Shown: positions 21,001-60,000 of the stretch, piece by piece
Layout of the letters: every line of letters starts with the position of its first letter
Numbering within the stretch: the stretch's first letter is position 1
DNA from: Xiamenia xianingshaonis
Lineage (GTDB): Bacteria; Actinomycetota; Coriobacteriia; Coriobacteriales; Eggerthellaceae
Direction: 5' to 3'
Length of the DNA: 64,000 nt
Assembly (NCBI RefSeq): GCF_017945865.1
Contig: NZ_CP072829.1
Span: forward strand, 124,001 to 188,000
Position numbers and translations under genes: made by a program
The notes under the pieces: generated by a model
What the model saw: the letters and a program-made list of their open reading frames with translations, nothing else
The model's database searches: none
Told to the model about the DNA's origin: nothing

Positions 21001-24000
21001 TACCGTGGTCGGAACACGTATTGGAGTTCTATCACCAATGCCTCGGCCAACAACACGGCCGACGCTGCCGGCTGGTACAACGAGGACCTTCGTCTCGACT
21101 CGACGCAGAGCACGTATTACACCTACAGCAACGATTGCGAAGGATGTGGGCACGAATACACCGGTTGGTCGCATACCGAGGGCGTTATTCCTGCGAAGTA
21201 TATTTCAAGTGGGAACAATACGGTCGAAGTGGTTCCGAAAAACTACTTGGTAGGGTTTAATGGCACCTATCGCGAGAACGCCGATCCGGCGCCGCGCAAC
21301 CTGGATGTCAACGGCTTGTATCAGCCGCGCACGCTGCCGGCGGCCTATGACGGGCGTTACGCCTTGAAGCGTGCCGACCACGTGATGGGCGGCCTGTCCG
21401 GCGCCGAACTCGGCGTGCGCGTCACCAACAAGCCGCTGTACGGCAACGCCACCGTCGCCGTCGATCCTGACGGCAATGCGCTGCAGTCGCCGGTCGTCCA
21501 GGGCAAGGGCGTGCCGGTCGCCGACTACGACTACGAAAACACGCGCTTCGGCTTGTCCGACGCTGCGACGAAGTCGCTCAGCCGCCGCGGCCCGTTCGGC
21601 TTCGCTGGCGGCAAGCGGGTCTTCACCGATGTGGACGCCGCCGCCACGCACGAGACGACGTACGTCGACCGCAAGACAGATGAGCATGACACCTTCGTTG
21701 ACAACGGCGTGTACGCCACGGTGAAGCTGCGCACGCGCATGCCGACCCTGAACGTCGATTACGAGGTTGAAGCCAACCCGGCCGATCGTCCGGACGACGT
21801 CAAGGCCATTGAGCATCTTGACGAAACCGGCACCATGGAAACGGGCAAGGGCGCGGGCAAGGACGCCATCATCGCGACTGACGGCTCGATCGTCATGGCG
21901 CCGAAGACGGAATGGACAGGCACCAGCAAGGTGGTCACGCGCGTGAAGAAAGACGCGCAGGGCCAGCCTATGATCGAAGTGACGGAAAAGACCTATAGCG
22001 GCGGTCGCGTGGAAACGTCCATGATCGAGTACCAGAACTACGGCGACGGCCTCGTCCTGACGAAGAGCAAGGCCAAGCGCGTGAAGTCCGCCGACGGCAA
22101 GAACATCACGCTGACGCTTGAGTCGCACGACCTGAGCAGGACTGCAGAAAAGGTTGAAGGCGACGTGGATTGGATCGCATGGGCCAAGCAATACACCCAC
22201 GATAAAAACCTGCTTGCGCAGGCCACGGAAAGCCTTAACAACCTGACGCTTGATTGGACGCTCGTGAAGGCGTTCCAGTGCTCGCAGCTGACCGGCGAAA
22301 TAGACGAATCGAAGGCTTATCTGTTCAACCACACCCCGTACAAAGACGGTAACACGCAAATCAAGTCGAATCCCACGCACATCCTGACCGAGAACTTCAA
22401 GCGCACGAAGAAGATCACGCTGACCACGGCGACCGACGAGCAGCAGAAGCTCCAGCCTGCCGTGGGCCGCACGTTCTACGAGCGTGTTGACAAGTACGTG
22501 TTGGCGGATCCTTCCGACATTGGCGACCGCTATGTGCTGCGCGGCACGAAGTACGTGCTGGAAAGCTTGTCTGAGGCCGATCCGGTTACGGCGACGGAGC
22601 CGCGTTATGTAAAGAGCAACGCCGACGACGCGTTCCAGGCCATCAATTACGACGCCGACGACTTGTTGGCTGCAGTGGTTCTGCAGAACAGCAGCAAGAA
22701 GCAGATCTACATGGGCGACGGCGACGCCTACGTGCCGGTGACGGTGAAGTACAACCCGCCGACGGCGACCGTGGCCGACGACCCGTACAGCTACTTTGGC
22801 TTCAACCTGCAGGCCATGGGCGGATTCGACGTTGCGGGCGGCACGTTCTTCGAGGTCAAGCACAACCCGGTTACGGCCCAAGACGAATACGTGCCGTACG
22901 AAGTGACCGAAGGGCGCTTGCCCCACCTGGTGGCCGGCAGCGCCGACACTCCGCAGGTCTACACCGCGCTGCAGGTGAACGGCGAGGTCGTCTACGTTCC
23001 TGTCACCTTCCAGAAGAAGGATTATGACATTCGCGACGATTACACCTACACCATCGACGCGCCTGCGCCCGAGCCGGTCGTGACCTATGAGCCTGCTCCG
23101 GCCGGTACGACCGAGACCACGTACGTGCTGCGTGGCGACGACTATGTGCGGTCCGATTCCGCCGAAGCCGGCACGGTCGGCCAAAACGAGCAGCTGTACG
23201 TGCAGGTGACCACGACGCCCGCCGCCACGCCGAGCGCCGGCGGTGAAGTGAACGGCGCTTCGTTCTTCACCTGTAGCGAAAGCAAAGAAACCATCAAAGA
23301 CATGAGCACCGCCGTCGAGATGTATGCAGAAGACGTGTCGTATGACGACGTCATGGCAGCAGGAAGCACGGCCACTTCGGTGAAGGTGCCGGTGAACCGC
23401 GACGCCGAAGGCAGGATCACCGAAGTTGTCGTCACGCAAGAAGTCGACGGCGAGCAGGTCGACGCGACGCGGTCGGTGACGCTGGAGTCTGACGGCGACG
23501 GCCGCACGCACCTGGTGTACTCTGTCGACGGCGTGTCTGCACCCACCAGGCAAGGCTGGTTCATCCCCGTGCCTGACGAAGAGAAGACCATCTACACCTA
23601 TGCGCCCATCTACATCACCTCCGACCAGGTTGCCGACTATGCCGGCGAGGTGACCGACCCGACGAAGAAGCTCTACGTTGCCGTGACCGAGACGGTCGGC
23701 GGCGAAGCCGTGACCGTGTACAAGGGCGTCACGCTGCGCAAGAAGGCGATCGACGAGCGCGAGCACTACACCTATGCCTTCTCCGACGTGTCCGAGAAGC
23801 ACCCCGCCTTGAACGCCATGTTCTACTACGACAAGGAAGAAGAGAAGGAAGTTCCGCTGTTTGACGCCGGCGGCAATGCGGTGTGGAAGCTTGACGGAAA
23901 CGGCCAACAAATCCTCGAAGGCGGCCAACCGGTCCAGCAGACCAAGACGGAAATCACCAAGGTGAAGACGCCGATCCGGACCGACTTCTCGCCCACTGCG

Positions 24001-27000
24001 AGCAACATTCCCAACCTTGAGGAATACATGGCAGCCGATGCCGCGCAGCTCTACCTGAAGGTGACCGTGAACGGTTCTGAGACCTATGTGCCGGTGACCA
24101 TCGACCGCACGAAGGAAGAGCCGCCGGCGGTCGTTCCTGACGAATACGACAACTTCGAATTCCGTTACGACTCTGTGCTCAGCGAGCTGCGCACGTACAC
24201 CACGCGTTCGGTCGTGTTCAACGTGTGGCTGCACGACAAGGAGATCGAAGCCATCACGGGCAAAGATTCGTTTATCAAGGACTACTACATCGACAGCTTC
24301 ACGCTGGACTACGTATCGAAGAACGACAAGTACTTCCTCACGAACAACATCCACTACGATTCCGACTTCCAGAAGTCCTTCGACATAGACAACGACTGGG
24401 TCAACCACGAAACGCTGTTCAATCCGTCGCGCGAAGAAGACGCGTGGCAGTACAACGAAGAGCCGTGGTTTGCGGCCACCATCACCAACAGCGCCGAAAT
24501 GACTGACGAGGACGGCAACCCGCGCCTGTCGCCTGCCGAGTACGAAGACATCGAGCAGGCCAAGGGCGACGTGAAGCATGCCAAGCTGGTCTATGCGTTG
24601 CACCTGCCCAGCCAGGTCACGTTCTATGACGGCGCCATGCTTACCGACGACAAGCAGAAGGCTGACACCGACAGCGCCTACACCTATATTGGCGATTACG
24701 AAGGCGCCGACTATCCGTTCTATGTCGAGCGCAAGTACAAGACGCGCACGGCCTTTGGTCCGTACAAGGCGGGCGACATGGTCACCGAGCGCCTGACGCC
24801 GAAGCAGTTGCTGGCGCAAGGCTGGACAGTGAAGATCAGCTACCAGTCCGATTACGGCGATGACACGTATGCCACCGAAGGCACGCTTGCTCTTCGCGGC
24901 AACGACGACAACGCCCACTACGGAAAGCCCGACGTTGACGACCCGGCCGACACCATGGTCGCGCGCGAATTGGCTCACACCAAGCTGGCTGGGCGTCTGG
25001 ACGACGGTACGAAGATGCCGCTGGAAACGGGCAGCCTTGAAACCATCAAGCCCGACGACCACGGTCGCGAAATCGTCGTGTTCGAAATCGCGCCGCCTGA
25101 CGACGCCACCGACGAGGAATACGAAGCCTCCGAATCGCTGCTGAACGCTTACTACGGCGGCGTGAACGCCAACGGCTATCTGGGCTACGGCGACTCTCTG
25201 ACGCTGAAGATCAAGACGCGCCTGGACAACCTGGGTGACATTGACACGGCCATGGACGACAGCCTGTACGTTGACGGCATGCTGGTCAACTACAAGGACC
25301 AGATGGAAGCCATCAACGCATGGAACGGCGACGACTCCGTCGTCTATGCGACGGCGCATCAGACCGCGCTTGACTGGATGAAGAACGCCGGCGATTCCTG
25401 GAAGCACTACACCAAGGACGTCACGGAGCGCTACTTTGCCGATGGCCAGCATCTGTATGCCATCTACGATGTGCCGGCTGACAATCCCTATACGACAAAG
25501 CAGCTGGCCGAGACAGAGACTCAAAAACCCAAGTGTTCCCTGCTGGGCAAGACTCCTCAACAAATCTGCGAGGAGCTGGGCCAGACGTACGTCGACGCGA
25601 AGGGCAACCCGGTCTACGGCGAGCTTGTTTCTGTGACCATGCCCGAGCCGCCGAGCTATCCGTACTTCTACTTCACCGGCCTGGACCAGCAAGGCAAAAA
25701 GGTCGATCCGAATGACATGAGCGCCGTGCAGGGCGTCAACTTCCGCTTCGTCATGCGGTTCCCGAAGGACGTGAGGTTCGTTGCTGCGCAGGAGGGCGAT
25801 GGAAAGCCGAAGATTACCGAACTGCCGCAGAGCCTGCCATCCTTCGTGGGCCAGCGCTTCAACAAGCAGTCCGTCGACCGCTTCTTCCGTGCCGGCACGA
25901 AGGCCGCTGACCAGCCTGGCGATACGGACAACCCGGTGGGCGTGAACTACGACCGCGATTCTGCCTACAACGACCTGTACGTGTCCGAGCGTTCCGGCTG
26001 GTTCAACGTGCGCAAGCCGTCTGCCAGCGTGCGCGCCGACACCGAGAAGCTTCGCACGATGATCGCCGACCTCGAAATGGGTACCTACTCTGGTATCGAT
26101 ACTCAGCTGCGCGGCGACAACGGCTTCTACCTGACGCAGGCCATCAACACCGGCGGTGCGGTGAACTCCTTCGTCGTCGACTGGCAGGTGCCGTTCTGGG
26201 GCACTGCGGTGGACGACGTCACCATGTCGCCGCAGACGAACTACAACGCGCCGTTCAGCCCAAGCAAGTACTACATCGGCCGCGTCGACTCCAGCTTCAA
26301 AGAAGTGTCCACCGGCGTGTGGGAGGTGCCCCACGCTGAATACGGAACACGTCTGACCTACTTCCTGCGTGATGGCGATGGCAACGTACGCTTCGACGAA
26401 AACGGCTATCCGGAGACGTTTAAGGGCACCATCGATTGGGCTAAAGTGCCAACGGGTAGTAAGATCACCACTGATCCGCCTGTCTGGACCGAAGAGGTTC
26501 CGGTCGAGCCCGAGCCTGGCGAAGAGGACGCCGCCGAAGAAGGGGAAGAAGATGCGCAGCCCGAAACGAAGACGGTGACGCATTACACGAAAGACTACTT
26601 CTACGCGCCCGACTACAGCAATCCGCTCAACGAAGAGGCTGAAACCGAATCGCAGCTCGTGCTGTACATGTTCGCCCGCATCGGCTCGCTTGACGTGGAC
26701 GAGTCCAGCAACGTTTACCGTGAGCAGAACGGCATGGCCACGCAGATGGCCGAGAACTTCGCGCTGCCCGGCATGGATGCCGACCGCGACTACTGGTATG
26801 GCGAAGACGACTTCGACGCAGTCGGGTTCAACAGCGACGGCAACACGGCCGACAACCTGTCCGACAACACCCGTTGGGTGCAGATTGGCGACAAACAGGG
26901 CTACAAGATCACCGACAAGAAGAACGTCAAGATCGATGCCGAGTCGTTCTTGGAGCAATATCCCGGCTGCGAAGTGCGTCAGATCCGCTGGGTCGTGAAG

Positions 27001-30000
27001 GCCGTGCCGCAAGACGGTCTGATTTCTGCACAAGTGGTCGGCAACGACCGTCTGGCAAAGCAGGTGGCCGTGCCGCATGGCTTCCGCCTGGACGTTGACG
27101 CCATGGACGACAGCAAGACCGGCCGTCTTGACGTGAATGGCAAGCAGGTCCCGGCTGCCGGCAAGCAGGAAGCCGACGACGTCGACCCGCTGCGCCTGAA
27201 TGCCGGTTGGGACTACCTCACCAACTTGCAGGGACAAGTGCGCACGCTCGACAGCAAGGGCAAGTACTACTACCCCGATGCTGCGCATACGCTGCCGGAA
27301 GGCATCACGAAGAACGCGCCGGTCATCCGCTTCTCCACTGCCAAGGTGACCGAGCCGACGTACAACCAGTACCTGGAAGGCTCCGAGCGCAAGCCCGGAG
27401 AAGGAGAGACCGACCTCGACGTGCACTTGAACCACTTCGTCAGCGCTGTGCCGCGCTACGATGACACGAAGTACGTGGAAACCGAGCGCAGCCGTGCCGG
27501 CTTCACGCGCATCAAAGAATCGCCGGTCATCGGCGTTGAGATCACGCAAGGCTATCTGTCCGGCAACCCGACCACGGGTTACAAATGGGCTGAAGGCGTG
27601 TCGGTGATCAACAAGGACGCGTCGCGCATGATGCGCTATCGCATCCTGCTGTCGAACTTGTCGCGCGAACAGATGGACACGCTGGGCTATGGCGACGACT
27701 ACGAACAAGACGTTGCCGGCAACCCGCAAATTTCGCAGATTCTGCCCTTCATTGAAGGCTTCGGCTCGGCTGAAGAGCTTACTGACGATAAGTTCCAGTA
27801 TGTCAACTATGACAACATCTATGAACCGTACACGGCCTACGCGCCGACGATGACCTACGTCAACAATCGCGTCTCGGAGCAGCGTGCTGCCTACGATGGC
27901 GCGTTCGTGAAGTATGGCGATACGAACATGCAGGGCTGCACGCCCGAGGGCGTCGCGAAGAACACGCTTGTCGTGCTGAACGGCGCCAATGGCAAGCCGG
28001 CGTATTGGTTCGAGGGTTCCGACCGTACCGTCTCGCTGGGGATGAAAGATTCGCTCGACGACGGCGGCAGTCTGTTGATCACGACCGATCCGGATACTCG
28101 CGAAATGGTCGTCTCCGACCTCATGCGCCAGTACTCGTTCATCGCTGACCTGCGCGAACCTACGAACCCGAAGTATTACGACGCTGCCGGTTACTTGGCA
28201 AGGACAACGCTCAACCCGATGCTCATCGACGCCACCAATTCGAACGACCTGAAGTATTCTGATCTGAATGGGTCGCTGACCGTTTTGACGAAGATCACCA
28301 ACAACGAAGGCTTGCTGGTGTTTGGTGACGGCAGCATCAACGCGCACATCGAGTCGACAAAGACCGAAGATGGCGCGACCGAGTCCACCATCAAATACGA
28401 TGGCAAGGTCGACGAGGCGCACTACGACGAAAGCAACCCGCACTTCTACAAAGCGCTCATGAAGGAATTCGACGAAGTGAGCGAGGAGACTTACTACACC
28501 GATGCACACGGCGTCGAGCTGTACCCGACCAATGACGATCTCAATGAGTTCACCTACGAAAACGGCACTTCGTTTAACTATGACTTGATCGTGACCACTA
28601 CGCACAAAGGCGACGGCACGACGCATACCATCTACGAGGACCCGCGCGGCAAACGCTTCGACGCCTTTGTCGAAGGCGACACCGTCATCACGCATGGCCG
28701 CAAGGCGGTCAAGGCCTACGACTACTTTGATTGGGACTACGCGTCGAAGCGGGTCGGTGGCAAATCGCATGCCAACCTCAACTCCACGACCCCCATTTGG
28801 ACCTACTACGTGGTCGATCTTGACGAGCGCCTCAACGTCGGCGACGTCATTTCCGAAGGCGCCGACTCGCGCGTGCCGCGCCTGAACACGGCGTCCATCT
28901 ACAAGAACACCGACCAGGTCCAAAACCTGGCGGGCGCTCTGCGCATCGAAGACAAGGCTGCCGGCATCAACACCGACAACAGCCATCCGCGCAAGATGTT
29001 GAACTGGCGCTTCACGGGCAAGCGTGCCGAAAAAGTCGAAGGCGACAAGACCATTGTCGAGCAGAGCCGCGGCGTGCTTGAGCCGGGCCAAGGCATCATC
29101 ATCGAACTGATGATGCCCATCGACAAGAACTCTTCTGACATGATTGCCGAAGAGCTGTTGACCACGGCTGCTTATGCCTACAAGCCGGGCAACTTCAAGC
29201 CCTACATCCCGACGGACGCCGAGTCTGACGGCTCTACGCACGGCCTTATTTCCGACACGCGCGACGTCAACCTCGACAGCGTGTACAGCCAGCCGATGGT
29301 CATGCACCAGACCAAAGCGCTCAGCTTTGAATCCGTGTCTGGCATCGGCGACGAGAAGCACGTCAGCACCCAGCTCGAATCGCTGTCGACCCACCTGGTC
29401 AACGGCCCGGCTGCCGTCCCCGAAGGCACGTCGTACACCTACCTGTCCGACATGGTGAACGCCGACAAGGATACGGTGAACGCCGTCAAGTACAAAGAAA
29501 TGATGTTCTACGACATCCTGCCGTTCGAAAAAGACAAGTACGCGTCGAAGAACGACAACCGCGAGCCCTTCGATCGCGAATCGAAGTGGAACGGCTTCTT
29601 GGAAGACCTCGACTCCATCAAGGTCATCCGCTACAGCTCCGGCCTTGGCGGCGCTGCGTCGCGCACCGAAACGCTGACCAACGGATCCACCGTCGAAGTG
29701 TGGGTTGGTCCGTTCGTCACGAAGTCCATTGACGACGATGGTTTCGTCGACATGGAAGTCGGCAACGAAGACAACATGAAATGGCTGTACAAGTACGCGC
29801 AGCACGTGAACGAAGAAGGCGTGGAATTCCCCGAGCCGACGCTTGACGCCCTTGGCAACGAAATTGACGGCGGCGGCGCCGATCGCGTGTACGAGCAGAT
29901 GGAAATGGCCCGCGTGGGTGAAAAGAAGATGGTCTGCGTCATCAGCGGCGCAAACAACGAGGACAAGATCATCACCGAACAAGACCCCGAGTGGAGCGAT

Positions 30001-33000
30001 CCGTCCATTGAGAAGGTCACGAAGGAAGAACAGGTGCGCACGGCAGACGAAGTGAAGCGCTCCTGGAACATGGTCAAGCTGAGCGAATTGAAGAATTACC
30101 TGCAGGTGTACCCGGAGAAGACCGAAGAGTTCACCCGCGCCATCCGCGCCATCCTGGCTCAGCCCCTTGCCTCGACATACGTTCCGGCTCGCGGCTACGT
30201 GCGTCTGTCGTATGACTTGGTGGCTCCGCTCAACCTGCCCAAGTTCGTCGGTTCCAAGACCGGCAACCCGGCGGTCGACCTGTTCACGAGCGGCGAGGCC
30301 GCTGGCGGTGCCGGCACGGACGCGCAGCTGCTGCCCACGCCGATCACCGACACCGGAGACGAGCCGGAGACCTCTGGGATGACTGACGATCAGAAGTCCA
30401 ACCGCGCCAAGCAGATGCGCAGCGTCATGCAGGTCAACTCGTTCGTGCCATTCGTGCGCCAAAACGCTGGCGGCGGCGCCCACAACACCTATTACCGTGA
30501 GAACAATCAGGCGTCGGCCTTCGTGGACGCTCCTGACGATCGCGGCTACATCGGCGACTATGTCTGGCTGGACAGCGACTGGTCCACCGTGCCGTGGGAC
30601 GACGTGTACTCCGGCGTCGACCTGTCTGACGAAGACTTCGAGAACAACAACTGGAACCCCATTGACCGCAAAGACAAGTACGGGGCTTTCACCAACTGGA
30701 CCGGCTTGCGCAAGGGCGACACGTACAAGACGAGCGCCAACGGCCGTCCGCTGCTGAAGGGCGTCGATCCCGATACCGGCAAGCGATTCGACCGTACGGT
30801 CACCTATGAGCAGGAAGTCCTCAATGAGCAATCCGGCACCTACAAGGTGGTCAAGAAGTCTGCGTACAAAGACCTTGACTTCGACGGCAAAGAGGAAGAC
30901 CCCGGCTTGAACGACGTCAAGATCGAGCTGCTGAACGAATACGGCATTCCGGTCAATCGCGACGGCGAAGCCTCTGTGCGCATCAAGAACGACAAGACCA
31001 GCGACGAATGGCGCTGGGTCGTATGCAACGCCCGCACCGGCGAGCCCGAGCTCGACATGTACAACAACTACATCAATGCCGACGCTGGTGAACCTTACGT
31101 CACGTACACCAAGACCGACTACTACGGCAACCCGGGCTACTACGTCTTCTCCAACCTGGCGCCGGGCAACTACCGCCTGCGCTTCACCTTCCCGGAGGAG
31201 TATTACAACTGGTCGCCCACGTCGACCACTATCGGCAAGCCTGAGCTCTACGCGCTGGCCAACGACACCGAGCTCACCGTTGAGCGTGTCGAACGCGAGA
31301 AGAACAGCAAGGGCGAGGTCACCCAAGAGGCTGCGCTGGTGGTTACCACGGCCGCCATCAAAGTGGAGCCGGTGCAGTACGACGACAGCGTGAAGGATTC
31401 GTCGGGCGACCCGATGTTCACCGACGAGAAGCATCGCGCCTATGACGAGAAGATGACGTCGATGAAGCTCGGCATCGCCCAGGGCGTCACGTTCGAGGGC
31501 GTCGCCTTCCGCGACGACGTGTACGAAGACGGCACCGTCATGGACACGAGCCTCATCAACTCGCTGCTCGATTCGGTCGGCACGGGCAAAGGCCTGGAAT
31601 ACACGAAGGACGACGGCAGCCTGTCCAACATGCCCATCAGCTCGGAACAGCAGATGCAGGGCGCCACGCCGGCCAAGGAAAAGCGCCTCGAAGGCATCCG
31701 GGTGAACGTGTACGAATACGATCCTGAAACGAAGAGCACGATGTCGACCCTCGCGGAAGACGCCGACGGCCAGTCCGCCACGGTCGTCACCGGCGACGAC
31801 GGCTTCTTCCGCTTCCGTCTGAAGAGCGGCAAGCAGTACATCTTCCGCACGTCGGACACGGTGTCCACGCGTCTCATCAAGCCGACGCTGGCTACCTGGA
31901 CTGAAGATCCGCTGAAGTACAAGAACGACGGCTTCTGTTATCTGCAGGAAAACTCGTTCCCGGATGGCTTCGACCCGGCCAGCGACGTCTACCTTGATGC
32001 CGTAGATTCGGAGAACCCGAACAACCGGTTGACCGACATTCCGGTCAACCCGAACGACTTGCTGTACAAGTCTGGCTCGTCGCGCACCTACCCGGTCGTC
32101 GCCGAACTGCCGCTTGACGAAAACGGCGTGGCCATCTACGAAGACGAAGCCAACAAGTGGCTCGGCTTTGAGCGTCGCGACAAGCTGGCCTTTGGCTTCA
32201 TCGACGGCACGAAGGGCTATTTGGGCAACAACGTGTGGAACGACGAAAACTACGACGGCATCCAGCAGGTTGGCGAGCCGGGCATCGGCTCGGGCGTCAA
32301 TTCCGGCATCCGCGTGAAGCTGGAAACGTGGTACTACGCGCCGAAGAACGCTGAAGTGAAGGAACGCGCGAAGCTTGACGAGGACGGTTGCCCGATCACC
32401 GAGATGGACAAGGATGGCACTCAGGTTCCGGTCAAGGAAGAGTACCTTGAGGACAGCGGAGAGTACGAGTGGAAGCTCATGCCGGGCTCCTATCAGCCCG
32501 TGTTCAACGAGGACGGCACGCCGGTCTTCGAAGGCGGCAAGCAGGCGGTGGAATGGACCGACGGCCTGCGCGAGGCGTGGACCGGCGATGCCGCTGAAAT
32601 CGGCATGTACATGTTCCGTGACGTGAGCAGCTATGTGATCGACCCGCGCGACACGCGTGAAGTGAACGACAACTACAAGGTGAAGCGCCTGGCCGGCTAT
32701 CGTTTGCGCATTGACCAGGAAGACCTGATGGGCCAGGAGGAAGACTACTCCATCACCATCCGCGACGCCTTGAAGCGCAACGACGTGACCGGCGAGATCG
32801 AAGGCATGTCCATCGACTCCGATTCCGACCTGAAGACGCAGGCTGAGAAGACCACCGTGCTGTCGCAGGCGCGCATCGCTGAAACCAAGCAGTCCGAAGA
32901 CAATGGCGGCACGCCGGTAACGACCTATACCAACGAGCAGCTCGAAGACGGCAAGCGCACCGACGACGAGTACGTTATGACGTACTACCTCAACGAGCCG

Positions 33001-36000
33001 GTGACGTCGCAGACTGAAGCGGGCACGTTCCTTGACGACGGCAAGCGCTTCATCGTGATGGCCAACATCGGCCAGCAGACGTCGAAGGGCGAAATCGTCG
33101 AAAAGCCCGGCACTCTTGGCTACGACGCGGAGAAGCTGACCAATCTTAATCCCTACGCGAACCTTGAGCAGGGCAAGTACGCGGAAGTCACTTTCAAGAC
33201 GACGTATCGCAACGAAACCGAAGGTTCGCAGAACCTGGTCATTGCCGATCCGTATCCGACCGGCGACAACGTGCGCGTTCTGACCGTGAAGGCGACAGTT
33301 GACGAGGATCTGCTGAAGTGGAACAACCCGGTGGGCAACTCGACCGAGACGTGGACCGTGAAGAGGCCTGACGGTGAGCTGGTGAACAAAGATCGTCCGA
33401 CGCTGCGCGGCTGGAAGCAGGCCGAGGGCGAAACGACGCATCGCAGCCTCACGTGCAAGGTGGACGACACCGACGCGTCGGGCAACCCTCAGGTCACGTT
33501 CTCGGGCCTGACGCTGGCCCCGGGCCAGTCGGTGACGCTTGAGGTGACCTACTACTTCAAGGCCACCAAGACGGTCGCGCACGTCGTGTCCATCACCGAC
33601 AAGAACGATTCCGCGAACAACATGGAAACGAACGTCGTCAGCTACAAGGTCTTCCGTGACCCAGAGGCGCTCAAGCCGCCGCTGCCGTTCTGCGTGGGCA
33701 CTGTCGACGCCGATGCCGACGTTGAAACGTATAATCCGGCCACCGACGAGATGGATACCAAGATCGAGGCCAACGCGATAACGCCCGACGTGATGAATCA
33801 GTCGTACCAGACGGCGCTTGAGATGATTCACGGCATCGGGAATGGTAACCCGTTCAAGGTTGGCCGCGTGACGTTTGATCCTACTAGTGCGAAAGACCCT
33901 GGTATCGTCATTGCCCAGCAGCCGCAGCCGGGCGAAAAGAAGCTTCCGGGCGCTGCCGTCAACCTGGTCGTCAGCGGTTCCATTGCCGCTGTGAAAACCT
34001 ATGATTCCGATGCTCTTGGCAACGAAATTGTCGAGACGCCGGCTTACGACAAGTACCTGCCGGAAAACAGCGTTGTGCAGTCAGTTCCAGAGGATCAGAA
34101 GAAGTACGAGAATCTGAAGGAAACCGAATACCTGGTGACGGCGGGCGATGAGAACACGGTGCCGCGCAAGGGTTTGATAGTCACGACCAACTACATTGGC
34201 GTCGATCGCTATGGAACCGAGGCGGAGGTCGAAGACGCTATCAGTCGTCTGTGGCGCGAAGCGTCGCATTACAAGCAGAAGATTCCGCAAGCTCCTGTTC
34301 CCGTACCTGATCCTGAAACGTACAATCCCGATCCTGAGAGCAATCCGGACTCCAAGTACTTCTGGCAGAAGTTCCTGGCCAAGAACGTTGACCCGAGCAG
34401 CGTGTCCGATGCCCAGAAGCAAAAAGCCATTGAACGCTCCGGCGAGCAATGGGAAAAGGACTGGACCAGTTTCGTCGAGAAATACGCCAACGTGCTTGGC
34501 TTTGCGTACCGCGACTACAACAAGACGATCATCGAATGCAACAAGCCGGCATCTGCGAACGGCAAGGTCTACAGCCAGCCGTACACCATGTTCAATCTGA
34601 TGTTGGAAGGCGACGAGCCTGAGGTGTGCTACGAGGCGTACAAGAGCCTCTATAAGGGCACAGGTTCGCCCTACATCCTGACGGACGGAAAGGGTGAAAT
34701 TCGCATCGACGTTGAGGGCGGCAGGCAGAAGGATCGCTTCGAGCTCGCAGCTGAGAAGTTCCCCGGGTTCGAAGCCATCTACAACAAGCTGCGCGAGAAC
34801 TACGAGACGGCCGTTGCCAAGTACAACGAGGTCATGATCCTGTACACCCAGCTGAACGACGCCTACAACTCCTACAAGGCCGACTATAAGGAGTATCAGC
34901 AGGAGAGGCTTGAATACGGCGCAGAGATCGAATACGGCGCCAACAAGATGCTGTTCGGCGACGTGGTGTACGACCTGGGCGACGCTGTGCGCCTGAACAA
35001 CTGGGACGTGGGTTTGGTCGCCGTACCGCGTTCGACCATCACCGGCAAGGTGTGGGACGACGGCTACTACAAGAACTCCGACAAGCCCGAAGACCGCCAA
35101 GGCACCACCGCCGACGGCCGCGACGTCTCCGAGCTGTCCGAGGCCGAAGTCGCCGCGCTGGCCTACAACGGCGCGCAGGACGGCAACGAGTCTGGCATCG
35201 CCAACCAGCTGATGTACCTGACGCAGTGGTACTACCTGCCCGTCAATGTTGAAAAGCCGGCCGAGAGCAACATCACGGTCCAGAATGCAGAGGCGACGGG
35301 TCTGACGTTGCCGAAGGCTACGGACGGGGCCGGTGCTGCGGGCTCCGGAGGCCCTGCCACGGAAGACGACGGCGCACCGAAGGACATGGTGCCGTACTAC
35401 ACCACCGTTCAGAATTGGGACACGCTGTCCGACGACGACAAGCTGAAGAAGCTCGCCGAGCAGGCCGGCCTGAAAGTCAAGGGCCTTACCACTGTTCAGC
35501 CGAGTGACGACGCCTATGGCAAGCTTGCCAAGAAAGACGTCGAGCTGTCCTCCGACGATGCTGGCCTGTGGGTGCGCAACGTCTACTTCGGCGCCGACGC
35601 CCAGACAGCCAAGTGGAAGGCCATCAACGCCACGTCCTACTACGAGTGGGATGACGAGAAGAACACCTACGTCGACTTCGAGGACTACGTCGACATCATC
35701 AAGACCGTCCCGGGCGACAACGGCGCCACTGTCAAGACGGTTGGCAAATACTATCCCGAGACGCAGACGTTCCGCGTTGACGCCGACACGGCAGCGCACC
35801 TGAAACTCAACAGCGACAAGCTGGTCATCAACGACTCGTTCATCAAGGTTGACAAATCTTGGGAGGACGGCGGCATCACGCTGAGCCTTGGCGAAGACCG
35901 CATGATTCGCAACGACGACGGCACCGTGAAGACGTTCGCCAACGGTCGCGTGATGACCATCGATCCGGCCGCTCGCGTTTATCGCGGTTCGGACATCCTG

Positions 36001-39000
36001 AAGCGCATCGCCAACGAGGCCACCGACACAGACGAAGTGCAGCTAGCCAGCGACAAGTACACGACCGTCAACACCTTCGGCACCGACGCGGCAACGCTTG
36101 GCGCCGTGGCCCGCGACGACGACGGCACGCTGAAGTTCATGGTTCGCCCGCGCACCGACAACAGCTGGATCGTCGGCAACCTGAATGCCGAGGGCAAGGA
36201 AATCGCCGGCTTCGACACGCATGGCAATCTGGTCGACGCCAGCAAGGCGAAATGGGCCGACATCGTCGACAACGACCCGTGCCTCGCGAAGGACGAGTTG
36301 GACAACATCATTGTCAAAGACGGCTACGCCGAAACCACCGACGGCTCCATCGTTCGCGTGGTGTCCGACGGCGATGCCACGAAGCTGCAGAGGCTCGAAC
36401 GTCCGCAGGTCATGACGGGCGTTTTGGGCGTGCTCACCGGCGACGTGGAAAAGACCGTCACCGTCGACGGCCAAGGCAACCCGAAGGTCGAATACGACCG
36501 CAGCAAGCTGGGCGTGTACGACTTCGACAACCTGCCGGCCGCCTACACCGCTCCGGACGGCGCCCACTACCTGGCGTCCTACCGCGTCGAGCTGGCTGAC
36601 CTGTACCACAACGACACCGACGAAGCCTCGCTGGCCGACAACGCCGACTGGCTGATGGCGCCCTTCCACACGGCAGGAGACGCGCCGCTGAAGGGCGTGG
36701 ACGAAGGCACCTATGCCGACATGGCGCAAGACTCCGACACCAACGACAACCGCGGCGTGGCCGGCGGCTATGCCGTGACCGCGCAAGACACGCTGGTCAC
36801 CGTGGGAGACAACGTGGTGTCGGGCCTGCGCGCCCACAGCGGCCACATCATCCTGGCCGGCACCAGCACCACGTTCCAAGGCGTTTCGGGCCACGACACG
36901 TCCGAGGGCGCCAACATTCAAATGTCGAAGGTGGCCGTGCCCATCGGCGACGTGTTCAGCAACATGGCCAGCTACAAGCCGGTCGCGGCCGAAGAGCGGT
37001 TCTCGGTGCATGCCTTCATTGAGGAGTACAAGACTAAGCATCCGGGAGCTTCGGCCGAAGGTGTGAAGAACGCAGCCAAAGACGAAGCCGTGAAGGCGCA
37101 TACCGCGGCGCTCAAGGCCGATGCCGCCAATGCTGGCAAGACCGAGGCTGAAATTGAAAACATGGCGAAAACTGCCGCTGAAGCCGACATTGCCGCCTAT
37201 GAGGACCTTGTCGCCAAGGAAGAGACGCGTCAGCAGCACATCGCGAGCTACGAGGGCGAATACCGCACTGCGCACGGCTATGAGGCTGCTGGCAAGACTG
37301 AAGAGGAAAAGGCTGCCATCGACGTTGCCGCGAAGGCCTACGCCGAAGGCAAGGAAAACATCGTCGAGCTGTACATGGCCGACAAGGGCATGTCTTACGA
37401 AGATGCCGTGGCGCAGGCCGACGCAGACATCGCACGCAACGACTACTACGCCACGCGTGACGACGAGATGAAGAAGTGCGTTGCCGAGCTCATCACGAAC
37501 GAACACATGGAAGAGGCCGACGCCGAAGCGCAGGCCGAGAAGGAATTCGACCAGCACGATTACGAGACCGAGTATCGCTACGATAATCGGGAGGCCACGG
37601 ATGCCGGGGTCGCGGCTGCTTGGACCGCCGAGCAGACCAGGCGCACGGACGAATACAACGATAGCGTCGCTGCCAAGAAAGCGGCTCTGATGGCCAACGG
37701 CAATCTGACCGAAGAGGAAGCCCAAGCGGCCGCTGTGCAGGCGATCGCCCTTGAAGACAAAGAAGCCGCTCAGAAAGAGCGCGACCGGGTGCTGGCCGAA
37801 AAGGCCAAGGCCGACGCCGAGGCTGCAGCCCGTCGCAAGGCTGCTGAATTGACTCAAGTTCGTGCCGAAGAGAACATCCAAGAGACCTTCGTCGTGTTCG
37901 ACTACCTGTCCTACCGCTACCAGGAGCGTCCGGTCGAAAAGACCGACCCGCTGGGCAACAAGTACATGGCGCTCGAACCGGTGTACGAAGAAAGCCCGGT
38001 CGCCGAGGCCGGGGCGGGCGAGCCCGTTTCCGCTGGGTCCCAGGAAGACCAGGCTCAGGCCTCGAGCCAGAGAACCAAGATCAAGCGCATCGGCGGCGGC
38101 GACGCCGGCGAGCTGGGTCCGACCACGCAGAGCATTTCCGGCGTGGTGTGGGATGACGCGCAGGACGGAAAGAACGACGGCACATACGATGCTGTCTCTG
38201 GCGGCGCCGAGAACGGCCTGCCGGGCAAGCAGCTGACGGTCGAGCGCTACTACCAGGTGGCGCGCACTAGCGAGACGAACATGGGCAGCTGGACCTACGA
38301 CACCACGTGGGCTACGCCAGCTTCCGGAGACAAGGTCAGCAGCGACGACGCCTATGCCATCGACCCGACGCTCGGCCTGGAAGGCAACGACACCTATGGC
38401 GCCAGCGTGCCGAACCTGGGCAAAACCATGGCAGCGGTGGGCTCCAAGCACACTGCCTTCGAAGGATACGACGACGATGTGTACAAGGCGCTTCAAGCTG
38501 CGCTGGAGTCCTCCAACGACGCTCTGGACAAAGCCCGGGAGGATTACGACGCCATAATGGCGGATACCACGGCGTCGGCAATTGACAAGGAACTGGCGGA
38601 CAAGGTCGTCAAGGATCTGGAAGCCAGGATTGACACCATCGAAGCGAAGCAGAAAGAGCTGGATGAGCTGAAAGCTGCTGAAGGCAAGTCGCTGGCGCAG
38701 CGCGCCGATGACGTGGTCTCGGCCGTGAAGAAGGATCACGTGCTTGCTGCCGATTTGAACTTGAGCTATACCGACGCGCTGCGCCTGCTGAACGAAGACC
38801 TCATGGTCGCGAAGACAGACCTGGCCGACCTTGAGAGCAAGCAGAGATATGCCCAAGCGTGGACGAAGGAACTGAAGGAAGCGCAAGAGAACTCGCCGCA
38901 GACGACGGCCGCCGACCTCATCGCCTTCCTTGAAGACCGTGTAAATAACCTCAAGATTCCGCTGACCGAAAATCAGCAGATGGCGCTCACTGTCTTCAAT

Positions 39001-42000
39001 GGGCTTGCGGCTGGCGATGACGCTGCAGGCGCGATCGCTACTGCGCTTGCCGGCGCACAGGCCGATGAAACAGCTCTGCAGACGGAGATTGATGTCGCTG
39101 CCGCGCGCGTCGAAACCGTTTCTGCGAACATCGACATCCTTGAGCAGGTCGTCCACAACACCTTCACGAACGAATCCGGCGCATACGAATTCGACAATCT
39201 GAAGACGCAGGGCTTCCTGCCGCTTGGCACGGACGATAACATCGACGCTGAGAACGGCACGCCGACGCTCGTCGTCTTCGCGTACAAGGTGCGCCTGACC
39301 GACGAGGATTGGTGGAACCGCTACCTCGGCACCGCGAAGTACCTGCAGGGCGCGTCCTACGCCATCGATTCAGAGGATTACAAGACCGACTCCGACCTGA
39401 TCCACGACACCGGCTATCTGATGCATGACGGCGTCAAAGAACAGAATATCGCGAGCGAATACACCGTGCTGCTGGACGTCGCCAACCAGGACACCGACCC
39501 GACGTCGCCCACGACGCTCAACGTGAACCGTCGCTATGCGCCCAACCCGAACAACCCGAACCAGAACACGGCAGACCGCTATGGCCGGGGCATCGACAAT
39601 TACGCGTTCTTGAAGACCTCGACCGATCCGGCGCAGCTGGCGGGCGATCTGAAGCAACAGCTGGTCTACACGCAGCAGGCCGCCGACATCGACGCGACCG
39701 AGCGCGGCGAGTTGACTGGCGGTAATGCCGTTCCGGGCATCGAGCCGCTGACCGAGAACGAGAAGGACCAAGCCAAGCAGAACATCGCCGACTTCGCGAT
39801 GGGACGCGGCCTGGCCGAAGATTCTGCCGCTGTGGCTGCCGATGCGGTGTACGGCGTGAACACCAACTACGTCAGCGCCCCGATTTACGACCTGGCCCGC
39901 GGCGCCGACCGCGCGTCCAACGACGCCGGCGTGCTGACCCCGGTGCGCGAGTCCATCGGTGGCACGCTGTTCAACGACAACGGCACCGACAACAATAAGG
40001 CCGACGGTTACAACGGCTTGCTTGACGAATCGGACGCACGTCTGGGCGGCAAGCGAGTCATTCTAAAGCAGTGGTACTACATCCCGGCTGAATATGAAGT
40101 GGCTGACGAGTCCGGTAACAGTACTAACTCCGAAAACAAGAATAAAGTCAAGGAAGGCACCGGTGTCTGGGTGCAGAACGAGGACTTCGGCAACGACGTC
40201 TACACCTGGGCCGAGAAAGAATACGTCGGCGACACGGTCAAGAATCGCACCCTGCCGACCAACCAGACCGCCGGGGCAGAGCCGGCCGAAATCGGCACTA
40301 ACGACCTCGGCCCCGCGCATCCCTACGTCATTGAAAACAGCTTCTATGACGAGAGCATCGACGGCGTGTTCACCTTCACTGGCAATGATTCCGAGAACGT
40401 CGACGCCTTCGGCGTGTACAACTTCTCCGAACTGCCGACGCGCGTGACCATCCGGCGTGAGTTCGGCCAGCTGGCGAAGGCAGCGGTTGAGGCCGACTCA
40501 GCCAACGGCATCGAAGCTGTTCCGGCCCAGGAAGCCAAGACCGCCTCTCCGGCAACCGAGTACCTGGCCGGCTACACGGTCGAGGTGCTGGGCGGCCCGG
40601 TGGCCGAAGGCGACGCGGATGCCGTGAACGGTCTGCCGGCCACGCCGCTGCAGGTGAAATCCATCGAAGAGGACGCCCGCAACTCCAAGGTCGTCAGCAA
40701 CTTCGAGGCCAAGAACCTGCGCAGCGCTGACGCTGACAAGAGCGTCACCACCAACCCGTTCGACCGCTATGAGACGGGCAACTACCCGATCATCTGGAAC
40801 GAGCGCACGGTCCAGAACGTCGGCGAGGACGCTGCCGCCGGCACGGTGACGAAGTCCACGCTCGACGGCATGATCGTCCTGGCTGGCCGCGCTTCGACGC
40901 GCGAAGCCGATGCGGGCGAAACCCAGCTGACTGGCCCGGTGGCCGCCAACGCGACGCCTGCCACGGCTGGCCAGAAGAAGGCCCAGGGCACGCAGGACTG
41001 GTACTTCAGCGCCTTCACGCGTAAGGGCGACGAGGCTCGCGGCAAGGCCGTGACCGACGTCGAGGCGTTCAAGCCGTATCAGGCCGCCGCTGAGGCAAAT
41101 GGCGAGACCTCGGCCAAGGAGCTCATCAACTACGCTGACCAGGACGTGTACTTCGACTGGTCTGTGGGTCTGAACAACACCGTCAGCGGTGCCGGCGAGC
41201 TGCGCATGAACGCCGGCTTCGGCGAGTTCGGCCTGTCCAACATCTCCGGCAAGGTCTGGCAAGACCAGAACTTCGACGGCGTCCTCAACCCGGGCGAGCC
41301 CGTCATGACCGACGCCACGCTGTCCATCAGCCAGTGGTTCTTCGTGCCGAAGGATGCGAAGGACGCCGACGGCACGTACCTTGTCCAGAAGCTGAAGAGC
41401 GCTAAAGACGGCGACGGCAAACCGTATTACGAATGGGATGAGAAGAACACCGTCAAACTCGGCGACGACAAGTATGTCAACGCCATGAAGACCAACAGCG
41501 GCAACGGCGTGTGGTTCCATGCTCTCAACGCCGAGCGCGTCAAGACGAAGGCAAGCCAGTTCAACGATCAGAGCAACGTGAACATCTCTGACGGTCGCAA
41601 GGCTGAGCTGGCTCCCAGCTCGGGCAAGACTGATAAGAACTTCCTGAACGAAGCTGCCGACGTCTATGAATGGAAGCTGGTCGCCAACTCGGTGTCCACG
41701 TTCCTGCGCCAGGACGCCAAGCCCAACGCAACGACCGGCGTGTACGAGTTCTCCGGCCTGCCGAGCTATGTGTATCTGGCCGCCGATGAAGACAACGCCG
41801 TCAAGGTCATCCAGCCGAACGACGTGGCGAACTACGGCACCGATACGTACCTGCGCGAAGCCAACCCGCTCACCTACGACCATATCTTCATGACGGGCTA
41901 CCGCATCGAGATGGAAGAGGTCGCGCCCAACTACGGCGTCACCTCGGTCCATGTCGGCGTGAACCTGGAGCAGAAAAAGTTCACGAACACTGCGACGCTG

Positions 42001-54000: not shown

Positions 54001-57000
54001 CTGACCCAGTGGTACTACCTGCCGGGCAATGGTGGGGAAGATGACACGAACGCTGCTGGTCAGAAGACCTACTGCTTCGAATCCACGCCGCAGTATCGCC
54101 ACGAAGGCACTGGCCTGGTGGTCGAAGTCCTGCCGGCCATGACGTTCGCCGGCCTGACGAACGAAGACATCGAGCTGGTCTACAGCGGCTCCAATGCCGT
54201 CAAGGGCGCCTGGATCCGCAACAAGAGCTTTGGCAAGACCATGACGTGGTACAAGCTGCCTGGCACGGTGTCCACCGATGGCAGCGGAACCACGTTCACG
54301 GTTGATGCGGCGGCTGGCCTTGTGCTGACCGGCACGACGTTCGACGTGCCCAACGACAACGTCGAGCTGGTGTACGACGAAAACGTCTCAATGGGGGTTG
54401 TCGCTGCTTGGGTTGCCAAGAGCGAGCTCGACATCAACGACGTCGCCGCTCTTGCGAGCACCAGAGTTGAAACCAAGACTCAGTGGCTCGGCTACCAGGA
54501 ACTGACGACGAATGACGGCGGCGGATACTCCTTCGCCGGCCTGCTGCCGTCCGTCCAGTTCCATGCCGAAAACGGAACGGCCGTGTCGGTACATCCGGCC
54601 AATATGACGCCGCAAAACGACGTCGTGGCCCTGGCCGCCTACCGCGTCTCCTTGCCCACGATGCCCGAGAACCACGTGCTGACCGCCTACCACACGAGCG
54701 AGGAAGATCCGTCGGCCGGCGCCATGAACGCCGACTCCGACGCCAAGCGCGACCTGCTGCGCGGTCCGCAAGACATGACGAGTGCTGCGGCATATCCGCA
54801 GTTCAAGGCTGAGGGCGAGCAGTCCGACAACGACTACGCGCACGCCACCGGCTTCATCGTGGTGGCGAACAGCGACACCGACAACAGCAGCTCCTATCTC
54901 GGTACCACGCAGACCGACGGCCTGAACGCGCGTTACGTCACCGGTGACGGCGTGAGCAAGGTCCATACCAGCAACCCCGAAGCTGCTGCTGGCCTCGCCA
55001 ACACTGCCTACGACGCCGTCTACCAGACTGCTCGCCCGGACGTGAACCTGGGCCTGTACAAGGTGCCCACGAGCGCCATCAAGGGCTACATCTGGGACGA
55101 CACCGTCTACGACGAAGAGAAGGCCTCCGACGGCATCCAGAACAAGCTGAATCAGGACGGCCAAGAAGGCTCTGAGCCCGGCCTGGCCAACCAGCCCGTG
55201 GCCGCCACCCAGTGGTACTACGTCCCGGCCGACCACCCGTCCTTCGAAGACATCACGGGCAATGCGCCTGCCGGCACCGTCGAGCGCGTCTACGCAAACG
55301 GCGAACTGCCCAAGAAGTCCCTGGCCCAGCTGGTGACGAAGGTCGACAGGGTCGAGGTCAACGCGGCCGACAACCTGATCGCAAAGACCAAGGCCACGGT
55401 CAATGCTCGCAACGAAGTGCTCCGCACGCAAAACGTTGTCGAAGGCCTGAACAATGCCGTTATCGACGCCTATGCTGCGCTGAATGAGGCCAAGCACATT
55501 CTTGCAACTGGTCGCAGCGCCGATGACGACCTTGAACCGGCGACGCAGACGCTGGATGACGCCGCGACGGGCGATAACGCCAATGACGCTCTCGAGCAAG
55601 CGCAAGGCACGCTGGACACTGCTGCGAAGGCTTTGGACGAGCTGAAGAATCTCGCCGCCGATCAGACGATCGAGGGCGTCATCGCCAGCCTGAACATTGA
55701 GACGCAGCAGGATGACGTGGATCGGCTGCAGGCATCCATCCGGACGCTCGACGAGAAGAAGAAAGCTGCCGAAGATGCTCAAAAAGCCTTCACGCAGGCT
55801 GAAACGGCGCTCCAGAACAAGAAGGCCGACGTCGATTACGACAGCATGGAGCAGGCGTTCGAGACCGCAAAGCAGAACAACAACTACGACCAGGCGGTCA
55901 CGAACAAGAAGAACGCCGAAACTGCGGCTTCGAATGCCGAGTCTGCCTACACCCAGGCAATGGAAGCCCTTGAGGGCTATGAGGCAGCGAAGCAAGCCTT
56001 GGATGCTGCCAACGCGGCTCTGGAAAGTGCAAGCGATGACGAAAAGGCTGATAAGGAAAAAGCCGTTGCCGATGCCCAAACTGCGCTCGATAACATCGTG
56101 AACGCCGAGCTTGCCAAGAACGAGGGCTTCAAGACCTTGAGCGATGCCGCCAACACCGCCAAGACCAACCTCGAAAACGCTAAGACCGCGCTCGAAACCG
56201 CCGAAAACGCCATCAAGACCGCGAAGGAGAACTTCGAGGGGGCTAAGCAGGCAATTGCCACCGAGCAGGAGGCCTACAACAACGCGGCCAAGCAGAAGAC
56301 CGAAACCGAGAACGCTTACAACAGTGCTCTTGCCACTGCTAACCTGCCCGGCTACGACGGCGGCAAGGACCTCGACAAGATCAAAGCGCATTACGAAACC
56401 GCGAGTCAGAACCTCGCTGCTGCTGAAGCCAGGCTTGCAGTGCTTAACGTCGCCAAGGATCTTCCGACGCTGCAGACTGCGATCAATGCGGCCAAGGCGG
56501 CCCTTGACAACAACGATGAGTCCGAAGCCGTCAAGGCGCTGAACGACGGTCTGGATGCGGCGGCTGCCATCATCTCCGGCAAGAGCGATCTGGAGACAGC
56601 TGCTACTGACTTGAGCGAGGCGCAGCAAGCCCTTGCCTCGGCCTACAACGAGCTCGATACCGCCAACAGCGACCTGGCCAACGCCGTCAAGCAACTGGTG
56701 AAAAGCTGGATCGCGCAGGCCGACAACGCCGAGCTGACCAAGGCGAACACCACGAAGAACAGCGTCATCAAGATCATTGCGGCCGATGGCGAACTGAAGT
56801 CGCAGTTCGACAATCGGATCGAGACCACCAAGGTTTCCGATGACGCCGAGTCTGTTGTTGGCGCCTGGGTCCAAAACGTCACGTTCGGCAGCGACTTCGT
56901 CACCACCACGGGCTTTGGCACCGGAAACCAGAAGCCGGTCGTCACAAACGGCACGTCGCAGACGGACGTTCGCCACGCGCACAGCGTCGTCGGTGTGGAG

Positions 57001-60000
57001 ACCGCCGACGCCATCTACGAGATGGAGGGCGGCAAGGTCAAACTCAACGAAAACAAGGAACCTGTTGTCGAAGATGCCAGCAAACGCGGCCTGTATACCT
57101 TCGACAACCTGCCCACGGCGGTCGTCCGCACCAGCGCGAGCGGCCAGGACGAATACTTCCTTGCCGCCTACCGGGTGGAACTGGAAGACGTGAAGAGGGA
57201 GATCGGCCTTGGCCCGTGGCACCTGACCACGATGTATCAGGGCGGCGCGCGCGAAACCGATTCCGATTCCTACAAGTTCAACAAGGGCATTGCCGGCAAG
57301 AATGCCGACGGCAAAAAGATCGTCGGCAAGTACCAGATCATCAGCCGCTATCCGGTTGGTGACAAGAGCTATGATGCGACCAATCTTGACGACGGCATGC
57401 TTATGCGTGCCAACAGCGGCCAGGTCATCCTTGCCGACGCGGTTAAGAACGCGAACGGCTATCAGGGTCGTTACCTCAGCCTGACCGGCGACCAAGCCTT
57501 CGAGTCCACCGATGCCAACACGTCGGTCACCTACCAGTGGGCCAATCTGCATGAGAACGACGATGCCAACCCCTTGCCGAGCGAAAAGACCGCTGGCGAC
57601 GTCGGCGAGATCATGCCGGCTACCAGCTCCATCAGCGGCTACGTCTGGCAGGAAAACAAGCGTGACGGCTTCTACAACCACGCTGATTCGTGCGACTACG
57701 AACGTCAGGAAAACAAGATCGAGAACGATCCGAACTCCGACAAGCATGAAGCGCCCGGTTTCGATGAAATCCTGCGCGACGACGACAACAACCTTATCGA
57801 GCAAATCCATTGGGACACCGAAATCGGCTACTACCAGGCCGAAGGCGTGGATGCGAAGAAAGTGTTGCTGCGTCAGTGGTACTTCGTGCCGGCCGACGAC
57901 GAGAAGTTCGATGGCATCCTGAAGGCGTACAACGAAAAGACGCTGCATGACACGATCGAATGGGTCACCGAAGATGGCGAGCCGGTCGATGACACGGTTC
58001 TCGCTTCGGACAGCCCCACTGGCGTCACCGGCGTGTGGGTGCAGGTGAAGAACTTCGGTGACGACGAAGCTTCTGAAAGCTTCCGCGGCACCGAAAGCGA
58101 TCCGTACCATGTGAATGACCGGAACGCCCGTGTGACGATCTCCTTGCCTGCAAATGAAGACCAGGGCTTGCTGGCTGGCAACTATTCCTTCAAGAATCTG
58201 CCGGTGCGCATCGTCGATGCTGACGACAACGAGTACATCGCCGGCTACACGGTTTCGGTGCTGGGCGATCCGGGTCTGAAGGTGACGGCCACCCAGGCTC
58301 AGCTGGAAGACACGCCCGATCCGTTCTTCGATCCCAAAGAGGATGGCGAGAGCGTCGATCCGGACGATTGGAACTCCAATGCGCGCGCCAGGAACACACT
58401 GGGCACGACGCGCTATGACAGCAGGAACTTCCCGCTGGTGTGGAACAAGAAGTATTCCGACGACGGCGCCAAGCACACGATGGACCAGATGCTCGTGCTG
58501 GCCGGCAAGAATGCTGGCAGCCAGTACACGGCGGGCACGTCCTACACGGAAACGATCGGCACCGAAAAGCGGACCGGTTCGGTGAAGTTCGACCTGACCT
58601 ACGGCAAGCGCGAACGTCGTTTGAATGCTGGCTTCATGGACGTGCCGAAGGCGCCCATCAGCGGCATCATTTGGAACGACGCCAACTATGACGGCATCCG
58701 CCAGACCGATGACGGCGCCGAAGAAGGCGTGCCGAACGTATACGTGCGCGTGAAGGCATACTACTGGGCACCGGTCGCCAAGGACGAGAACGGCGAAAAG
58801 AAGTGGGCCTGGGTCAGCTATCCGGAGCTGGGTGACTACGACTACTGCTTCACGACGTCCGACGGCTATACGGCCGAATACGGCATCGACGACGACGGCA
58901 ACCCGGTCAAGATTCTGAAATACAGCGCCAAAAACATCGGTTGCTACACTACGGCCAAGATGCCGACCAGCTTCAACATCGATGGTGTCGACCGCTTGGC
59001 TGGTTATCAGATCGAAGTTATGGACACCGAAGACTATCCGCTGCCGAAGGGTGCCACGCTTACTAAGATTCACGTGGCCGATCCGAATGCGGCGACTTTC
59101 ACCAAGGACATTAGGTCCGAGTCCGACCTGTTCCATACGCAGAGCAACGCTACGTACTTGATGGTCAACCGCGTCGACGACAGCGAAGACGCCGTGACGC
59201 CGAAGTCCGAGCAGATCGAGGGCGTAGACGTGTTGGTGCATCCCGGCGGCGGCATGCGCTACCGCGCCGACGGCATGATTCTCACGGCAGAGCCGTGGGA
59301 TGGCAGAGAGATTGAAGACCAATACAAGTCGGTGTACAACGGCTTGACCTACGACATGCACCTGAACGTTACGGGTTCGACGGGAGCGTCGGGCGGCGAC
59401 GGCGGCCTGATCTTCGTGCCCGCCACGAACCTTGAAGGCATCGTGTGGGACGACGGCTCGCATGACGAGAACGATTCGCTGCTGCCGCGCGCCAACCGCA
59501 AGGACTACAACGGCCTGCAGGACAAAGACGAGAAGGGCCTGGCCGGTCGCGAGCTGTTGCTGACCCAGTGGAAGTACGACAACGCTCAGAAGACGTGGGA
59601 AAAGGTCGACGCGTTCGGCGACGATCTGACGCAAAACGTCAGCTACACGGTGGCGCGTGCGGCCCGCTTGGGCGAGCGCGTGCTTGCCACCGGACATGTG
59701 TCTGCCGCAGCGGTCGAGGGCTACATCATGATGCAGATGGCCGCCGACTACCTGGAGGAAGTCGCTGCTGACGAATCGCTCACTGCCAACAAGCGCGAAG
59801 CGGCTGCCATCGTGCTGTCCGTCGTGCGCAAGGCCGTGGCCGAAGCCGAAGGCACCACCGAGGTGCTGCCGGTCGAGCTGCTGACCATCGCCAACAATGA
59901 CATCCAGGCTCTGGCGACGAGCGATTCTCTCAAGCAGGAGGCGCTTGCCATGGCGAAGGATGCCGTTGCCAAGGCGCTGACCGACACCGTGAACGGCGAC

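Follow-up and report, generated by a model that had tools for sequence, protein, structure and literature searches.

The question raised by this locus is how a long Ala-rich helical segment is accommodated in a surface fibre made of beta domains, and whether it continues the fibre or branches from it. The window analysed, 64 kb corresponding to positions 124001-188000 of the 2.26 Mb single-contig genome of Xiamenia xianingshaonis, is a single open frame throughout. It forms part (window 1-63999, plus strand, as all window features below unless indicated) of a giant ORF of 30,639 codons (genome C1:102353-194272, first ATG at codon 43) encoding a surface protein of about 30,600 amino acids. A hydrophobic stretch, VLAIVLSILIGLTSW, is located about 60 residues past the ATG, and direct inspection of the C terminus revealed LPQTSDP followed by a hydrophobic stretch and RRRR, resembling a wall-sorting signal. 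A search of the giant protein with anchor profiles gave no match. The product is a giant, probably sortase-anchored surface fibre. Giant ORFs of this kind, of about 20,000 to 35,000 codons, recur across the family, and because of this recurrence the ORF is regarded as real and conserved; a match to the coil-bearing unit was found in 20 of 138 genomes and 5 of 48 genera. The antisense ORFs on the minus strand opposite the giant gene, of up to 4,208 codons (window 21205-33831 and others), are therefore best read as shadows of codon usage, which is their most likely origin.

The same genome encodes a second giant ORF (G000:C1:1308645-1375550, minus strand, 22,301 codons) with a C-terminal LPQTGD and hydrophobic stretch, whose counterpart in Slackia sp. 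ZJ119 (G002:C2) has 22,174 codons. The sorting motif LPQTS is common to the giant ORF studied here, its orthologue in Slackia sp. ZJ119 and a second giant of that strain (G002:C39), while the second Xiamenia giant and the relatives G002:C2, G007 and G008 carry LPQTG instead. Upstream of the giant ORF (G000:C1:95751-100145) there are look-alikes of TatC and TatA on the minus strand and of a Mur-ligase/glutaminase fusion on the plus strand, likenesses noted by visual inspection of their translated sequences.

The unit that hosts the coil (55069-57621) spans 851 residues and comprises two beta halves, both with homologous halves in relatives. Half 1 (IKGYIWDD...TQWYYVP...TVERVYANGE) occupies 55069-55305 and half 2 (SDDAESVVGAWVQN...YTFDNLPTAV...EYFLAAYRVEL...) 56836-57621; the insert, 508 residues long (55312-56835, unit residues 82-589), lies between them. 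In relatives devoid of the coil the alignment covers unit residues 1-79 and resumes from about 592 to 851, with only a few residues in between, and the boundaries of the insert are thereby fixed independently. The pre-coil motif SFEDI...GTVERVYANGE matches the entire short loop FEQIETGEAAGIVEWVAADGS of a coil-free unit; the coil therefore begins downstream of that loop and is followed by the GAWVQN strand. The graft point would be a surface loop preceded by the TQWYYVP/VERVY strands and closed by GAWVQN. AlphaFold2 predicted a strand at unit residues 44-53 (TQWYYVP region, 55198-55227) before the insert and another at 596-602 (56854-56874) after it, with helices between. Two motifs mark the base of the arm, LPxK[ST]LAQ[LI]V at its N-terminal side (55294-55335) and WxxxADxxELxKAxxTxNxV..I..AD at its C-terminal side (56704-56784); among the giant ORFs examined, LPxK[ST]LAQ[LI]V and WxxxADxxELxKAxxTxNxV occur only at three homologous coils, where they are conserved.

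The units of the giant follow the repeated pattern GxxWDDxxxDGI...GxYxFxNLPT...EYxLAAYRVEL, a pattern shared with the SdrD B-like, CnaB-type domains (PF17210). The last, C-terminal unit passes the PF17210 cut-off (39.2 versus 29.7 bits); the host unit itself gave no match to this profile, and the region downstream scored a sub-threshold 16.4 bits. By its pattern the host unit may be described as SdrD_B-like, although it differs from SdrD B-like domains in having extra strands and long loops.

The insert contains 21.7% Ala, 3 Pro and 14 Gly, compared with 9.6% Ala in the whole protein. Its heptad score, obtained by a Viterbi procedure, lies at z = 11.2 against full shuffles and at z = 11.1 against shuffles of 20-residue blocks that keep the local composition, none of 300 reaching the score of the insert, while a beta control stretch of the giant protein gave z = -0.9. 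Across the three homologous coils z was 11.2, 14.0 and 6.7. Position a is occupied by large hydrophobic residues in 79% of the heptads of the Xiamenia insert and in 79-82% of those of both orthologues, and position d by Ala in 58% and 58-59%, figures that describe the pattern and do not test it independently, as the register was picked by the same score. A hydrophobic a position combined with an Ala d position is the arrangement of Ala-cored antiparallel coils (Alacoil). Probabilities from our re-implementation of COILS are indicative only; the shuffle tests are independent of its calibration. A search of PDB sequences with the coil returned chance-level matches only, and Pfam only sub-threshold matches to helices of the ATP-synthase epsilon type. 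Relatives of the coil were also sought in phage records and viral contigs and none was found; by that test, import of the coil from a phage was rejected.

The antiparallel arrangement is predicted with more confidence for the orthologue. A contig scan identified Slackia sp. ZJ119 as the nearest, and sole, named relative; its giant G002:C12 is colinear with the Xiamenia ORF over 13 blocks with a mean identity of 44%. The orthologous coil has 347 residues versus 508. The identity between orthologues is 32-36% in the arms and 63-80% in the flanks. The arms measure 239 and 222 residues in Xiamenia and 176 and 171 in the orthologue, so that the two have been resized in concert, which is what a hairpin demands. 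In the AlphaFold2 model of the orthologous unit (600 residues, alignment of 7 rows), two unbroken antiparallel helices of 175 residues (85-259 and 262-436) are joined by a turn at 260-261 and flanked by strands 43-53 and 487-493. Over the outer half of the rod pLDDT values are for the most part 85-95, with up to 95 around the tip, and closer to the base they fall to 66-79. Given that a straight helix extends 0.1485 nm per residue, the orthologous arm would measure about 26 nm as a simple rod. Structural comparison of this model with VIA-align 2 placed PrgA (6z9l) first (Z 17.5, 343 residues, rmsd 11.7), followed by hairpins of SMC, a chemoreceptor, RipA and colicin, an order to be read bearing in mind that Ala-rich coils match many unrelated coils.

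These results bear out a good part of the first-pass annotation, which had proposed that a 508-residue Ala-rich coil at 55312-56835 is nested in a beta domain and forms an antiparallel hairpin projecting sideways from a closed base. The coil lies in open frame with the composition and heptads given above, its flanking strands are predicted on both sides, and the orthologue is modelled as two paired helices whose structural matches are antiparallel hairpins. Because both ends of the insert join the same domain, the chain returning to where it left, the insert must branch off the fibre rather than continue it in line. We thus consider it quite probable that it constitutes a lateral arm, an Ala-cored antiparallel coiled-coil hairpin set in a surface loop of one SdrD_B-like domain of the giant fibre; the tip, according to the models, would be at the middle of the insert.

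The shape of the Xiamenia arm is a separate matter. Coiled-coil and structure prediction of 55069-57621, suggested as a check by the same annotation, yielded strongly heptad-patterned helices in a model of low confidence: the alignment for the 851 residues was shallow (7 rows), mean pLDDT was 55 and pTM 0.31, with loops below 50 and the beta domain hardly modelled. In unit numbering, arm 1 (55321-56028) is predicted as helices 85-147, 157-198, 214-254, 257-270 and 273-320, and arm 2 (56044-56718) as helices 326-424, 433-462, 465-480, 484-503 and 505-550, connected by SASDD (residues 321-325, 56029-56043), which is the predicted tip and the midpoint of the insert. The main breaks in arm 1, 148-156 and 199-213, face those in arm 2, 481-484 and 425-432. 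NLPGYDGG (56341-56364), which had been proposed as the central turn, does not hold that place: it has 343 residues of the insert before it and 157 after, two thirds of the way through. Being off-centre, it was rejected as the hairpin tip, and in the model it is a loop of arm 2 opposite the arm-1 loop 199-213. The packing of the arms was deduced from DSSP and structural alignments of the models. Region 211-431 of the Xiamenia model aligns with hairpins, while for residues 113-198 and 433-513 taken together the matches are four-helix bundles (7x8v, Z 15.6, 160 residues, 3.2 Å; talin); the aligned range and length suggest that the distal hairpin was skipped in the latter match. The proximal helices probably fold back to form a bundle. 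On it would stand, in this low-confidence model, a distal hairpin whose arms have about 100-107 residues each and a length of about 15-16 nm, for a total of perhaps 19-20 nm.

The two arms of about 250 residues reaching more than 30 nm that had been envisaged do not agree with this broken model. A related reading, close to the first-pass annotation, is that the arms of about 222-239 residues are unbroken and straight with a reach of 33-35 nm, the breaks being bulges or hinges. Counted from the tip, the four main breaks fall at approximately matching positions in the two arms (102-124 and 158-175 residues away), and the orthologous rod is unbroken in its AlphaFold2 model, both of which speak for a straight hairpin. 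However, the alignment of the proximal part to 7x8v and talin is not what would be expected from a straight two-helix rod, and the breaks include loops such as GRSADDDLEP and NLPGYDGG. We regard the straight hairpin as unlikely, though it deserves serious weight, and favour the folded-back arm for the Xiamenia copy.

Several Gram-positive surface proteins offer points of comparison. Enterococcal PrgA, of the SEC10/PgrA surface exclusion family (6z9l; TIGR04320), likewise displays a long antiparallel coiled-coil hairpin, and this stalk of about 40 nm carries a protease domain (PMC10588982). As PrgA is also the best structural match to the orthologue, it could be thought that the arm is a stalk of this sort, with a tip that offers a surface for specific binding. 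Against it, no domain is placed between the arms, the CAP protease domain being absent from the tip in both the Xiamenia and orthologue models, where linkers of 2-5 residues join the arms (SASDD and two residues, respectively), and the tips differ among the three coils (SASDDEKADK, NAGEGATEEQ and LQADSDKTT). A tip-bound adhesin is thus improbable in our estimation. The coil of PrgA is its main stalk with a protease domain at the tip, whereas the coil described here has a bare tip and interrupts a single beta domain among the many that make up a much larger fibre. The TIGR04320 profile scored 17.8 bits with the Xiamenia unit and 53.7 with the orthologue, below the whole-protein cut-off of 70; the long antiparallel stalk of that family is predicted for the orthologue and, with lower confidence, for the Xiamenia copy. 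With the score below cut-off and the tip domain lacking, the coil is not filed as a SEC10/PgrA member; by analogy it may work like the PrgA/SEC10 stalk from outside that family.

Antigen I/II and M-like proteins also place helical rods on Gram-positive surfaces, the former pairing a helix with a polyproline stretch and the latter forming parallel dimers, and in both the rod is the main stalk, whereas the coil described here is a side insert. The predicted intramolecular hairpin would argue against a parallel dimeric rod of M-like type. Giant fibrillar adhesins are likewise very long multi-domain Gram-positive surface proteins; that of Mobiluncus mulieris has 7651 residues (PMC10619420), and among the giant adhesins Giant1-5 of Apilactobacillus, Giant5 has a long helix beside beta domains (PMC12863079). 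The present fibre differs from them in its size, about 30,600 residues, and in that its helices would be hairpins within beta domains and not in-line segments. In the open-access literature searched, no description was found of Slackia giant adhesins or of coils inserted in such domains.

Long regular heptads and the presence of several arms per molecule could also be accommodated if arms from neighbouring fibres paired with each other, the coil then bundling fibres or cells instead of projecting as a free rod. This pairing between fibres has, to our judgement, a low probability, taking into account that: (i) the entry and exit points of the chain coincide; (ii) the orthologue is predicted as a self-paired hairpin, and (iii) the three coils are all acidic, with net charges of -37, -31 and -35, which disfavours bundling of like with like unless cations intervene. 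The low identity of the arms and their variable presence might, on the other hand, suggest a functionless low-complexity expansion tolerated in the loop. Yet the heptad register is held in all three homologues despite an identity of about 34% between the orthologous arms, and the base motifs are conserved, which makes such an expansion highly improbable. Returning to the lateral arm, we infer a rigid, acidic rod at the side of the fibre, in which length rather than exact sequence is what matters, because conservation is seen in the base motifs whereas the arms have diverged and been resized and the tips are unlike and lack a domain. The arm would likely widen the fibre and set its spacing or the contacts it makes with cells, matrix or other fibres nearby.

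The distribution of the arm was followed through the spacing between TQWYY and GxWVxN, which is 30-67 residues in at least eight relatives (G003, G007, G008, G020, G060, G064, G101 and G116) and 561, 452 and 374 in the three coil bearers, namely Xiamenia, the ZJ119 orthologue and G002:C39. Where checked, the coil-free units adjoin the same preceding unit as the Xiamenia coil unit. The ORF of G002:C39 (G002:C39:9969-114752), with 34,927 codons, exceeds the Xiamenia giant in length and contains at least five long coil stretches.

A second coil site was located in the window at 14197-15639 (ORF positions 11949-12429), where IEYYVPF and VGAWFRE are separated by 467 residues, mostly coil, with a block-shuffle z of about 7. 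The loop with the same flanking motifs has 42 residues in the colinear orthologue and 572 in the paralogue G002:C39, whose coil gave z 8.3. The likeness of the YYVP/GAW motifs suggests that this second coil occupies the equivalent loop of a different domain. More helical inserts are present at about 36970-37900 and 38440-39160 of the window; that at 38440-39160 is within another WDD unit, before a GAYEFDNL strand, and hence in a different loop.

Arms in these giants appear to have been repeatedly gained, lost and resized at loops. It is conceivable, and we advance it only tentatively, that the giant fibre is a modular branched rod in which one beta-domain loop docks arms of freely variable length, producing a species-specific pattern of side arms. 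The customary picture of a Gram-positive surface fibre is a linear string of beta domains. In the present proteins, at two separate sites and in a loop that looks equivalent, relatives differ in whether they bear a helical arm of about 235-570 residues and in how long it is. The comparison provides a clear rule to find comparable arms in other giant adhesins, and the natural series formed by relatives with no arm, with an arm of a predicted 26 nm and with a probably folded-back arm could be used to probe the role of side arms in adhesion, spacing and biofilm.
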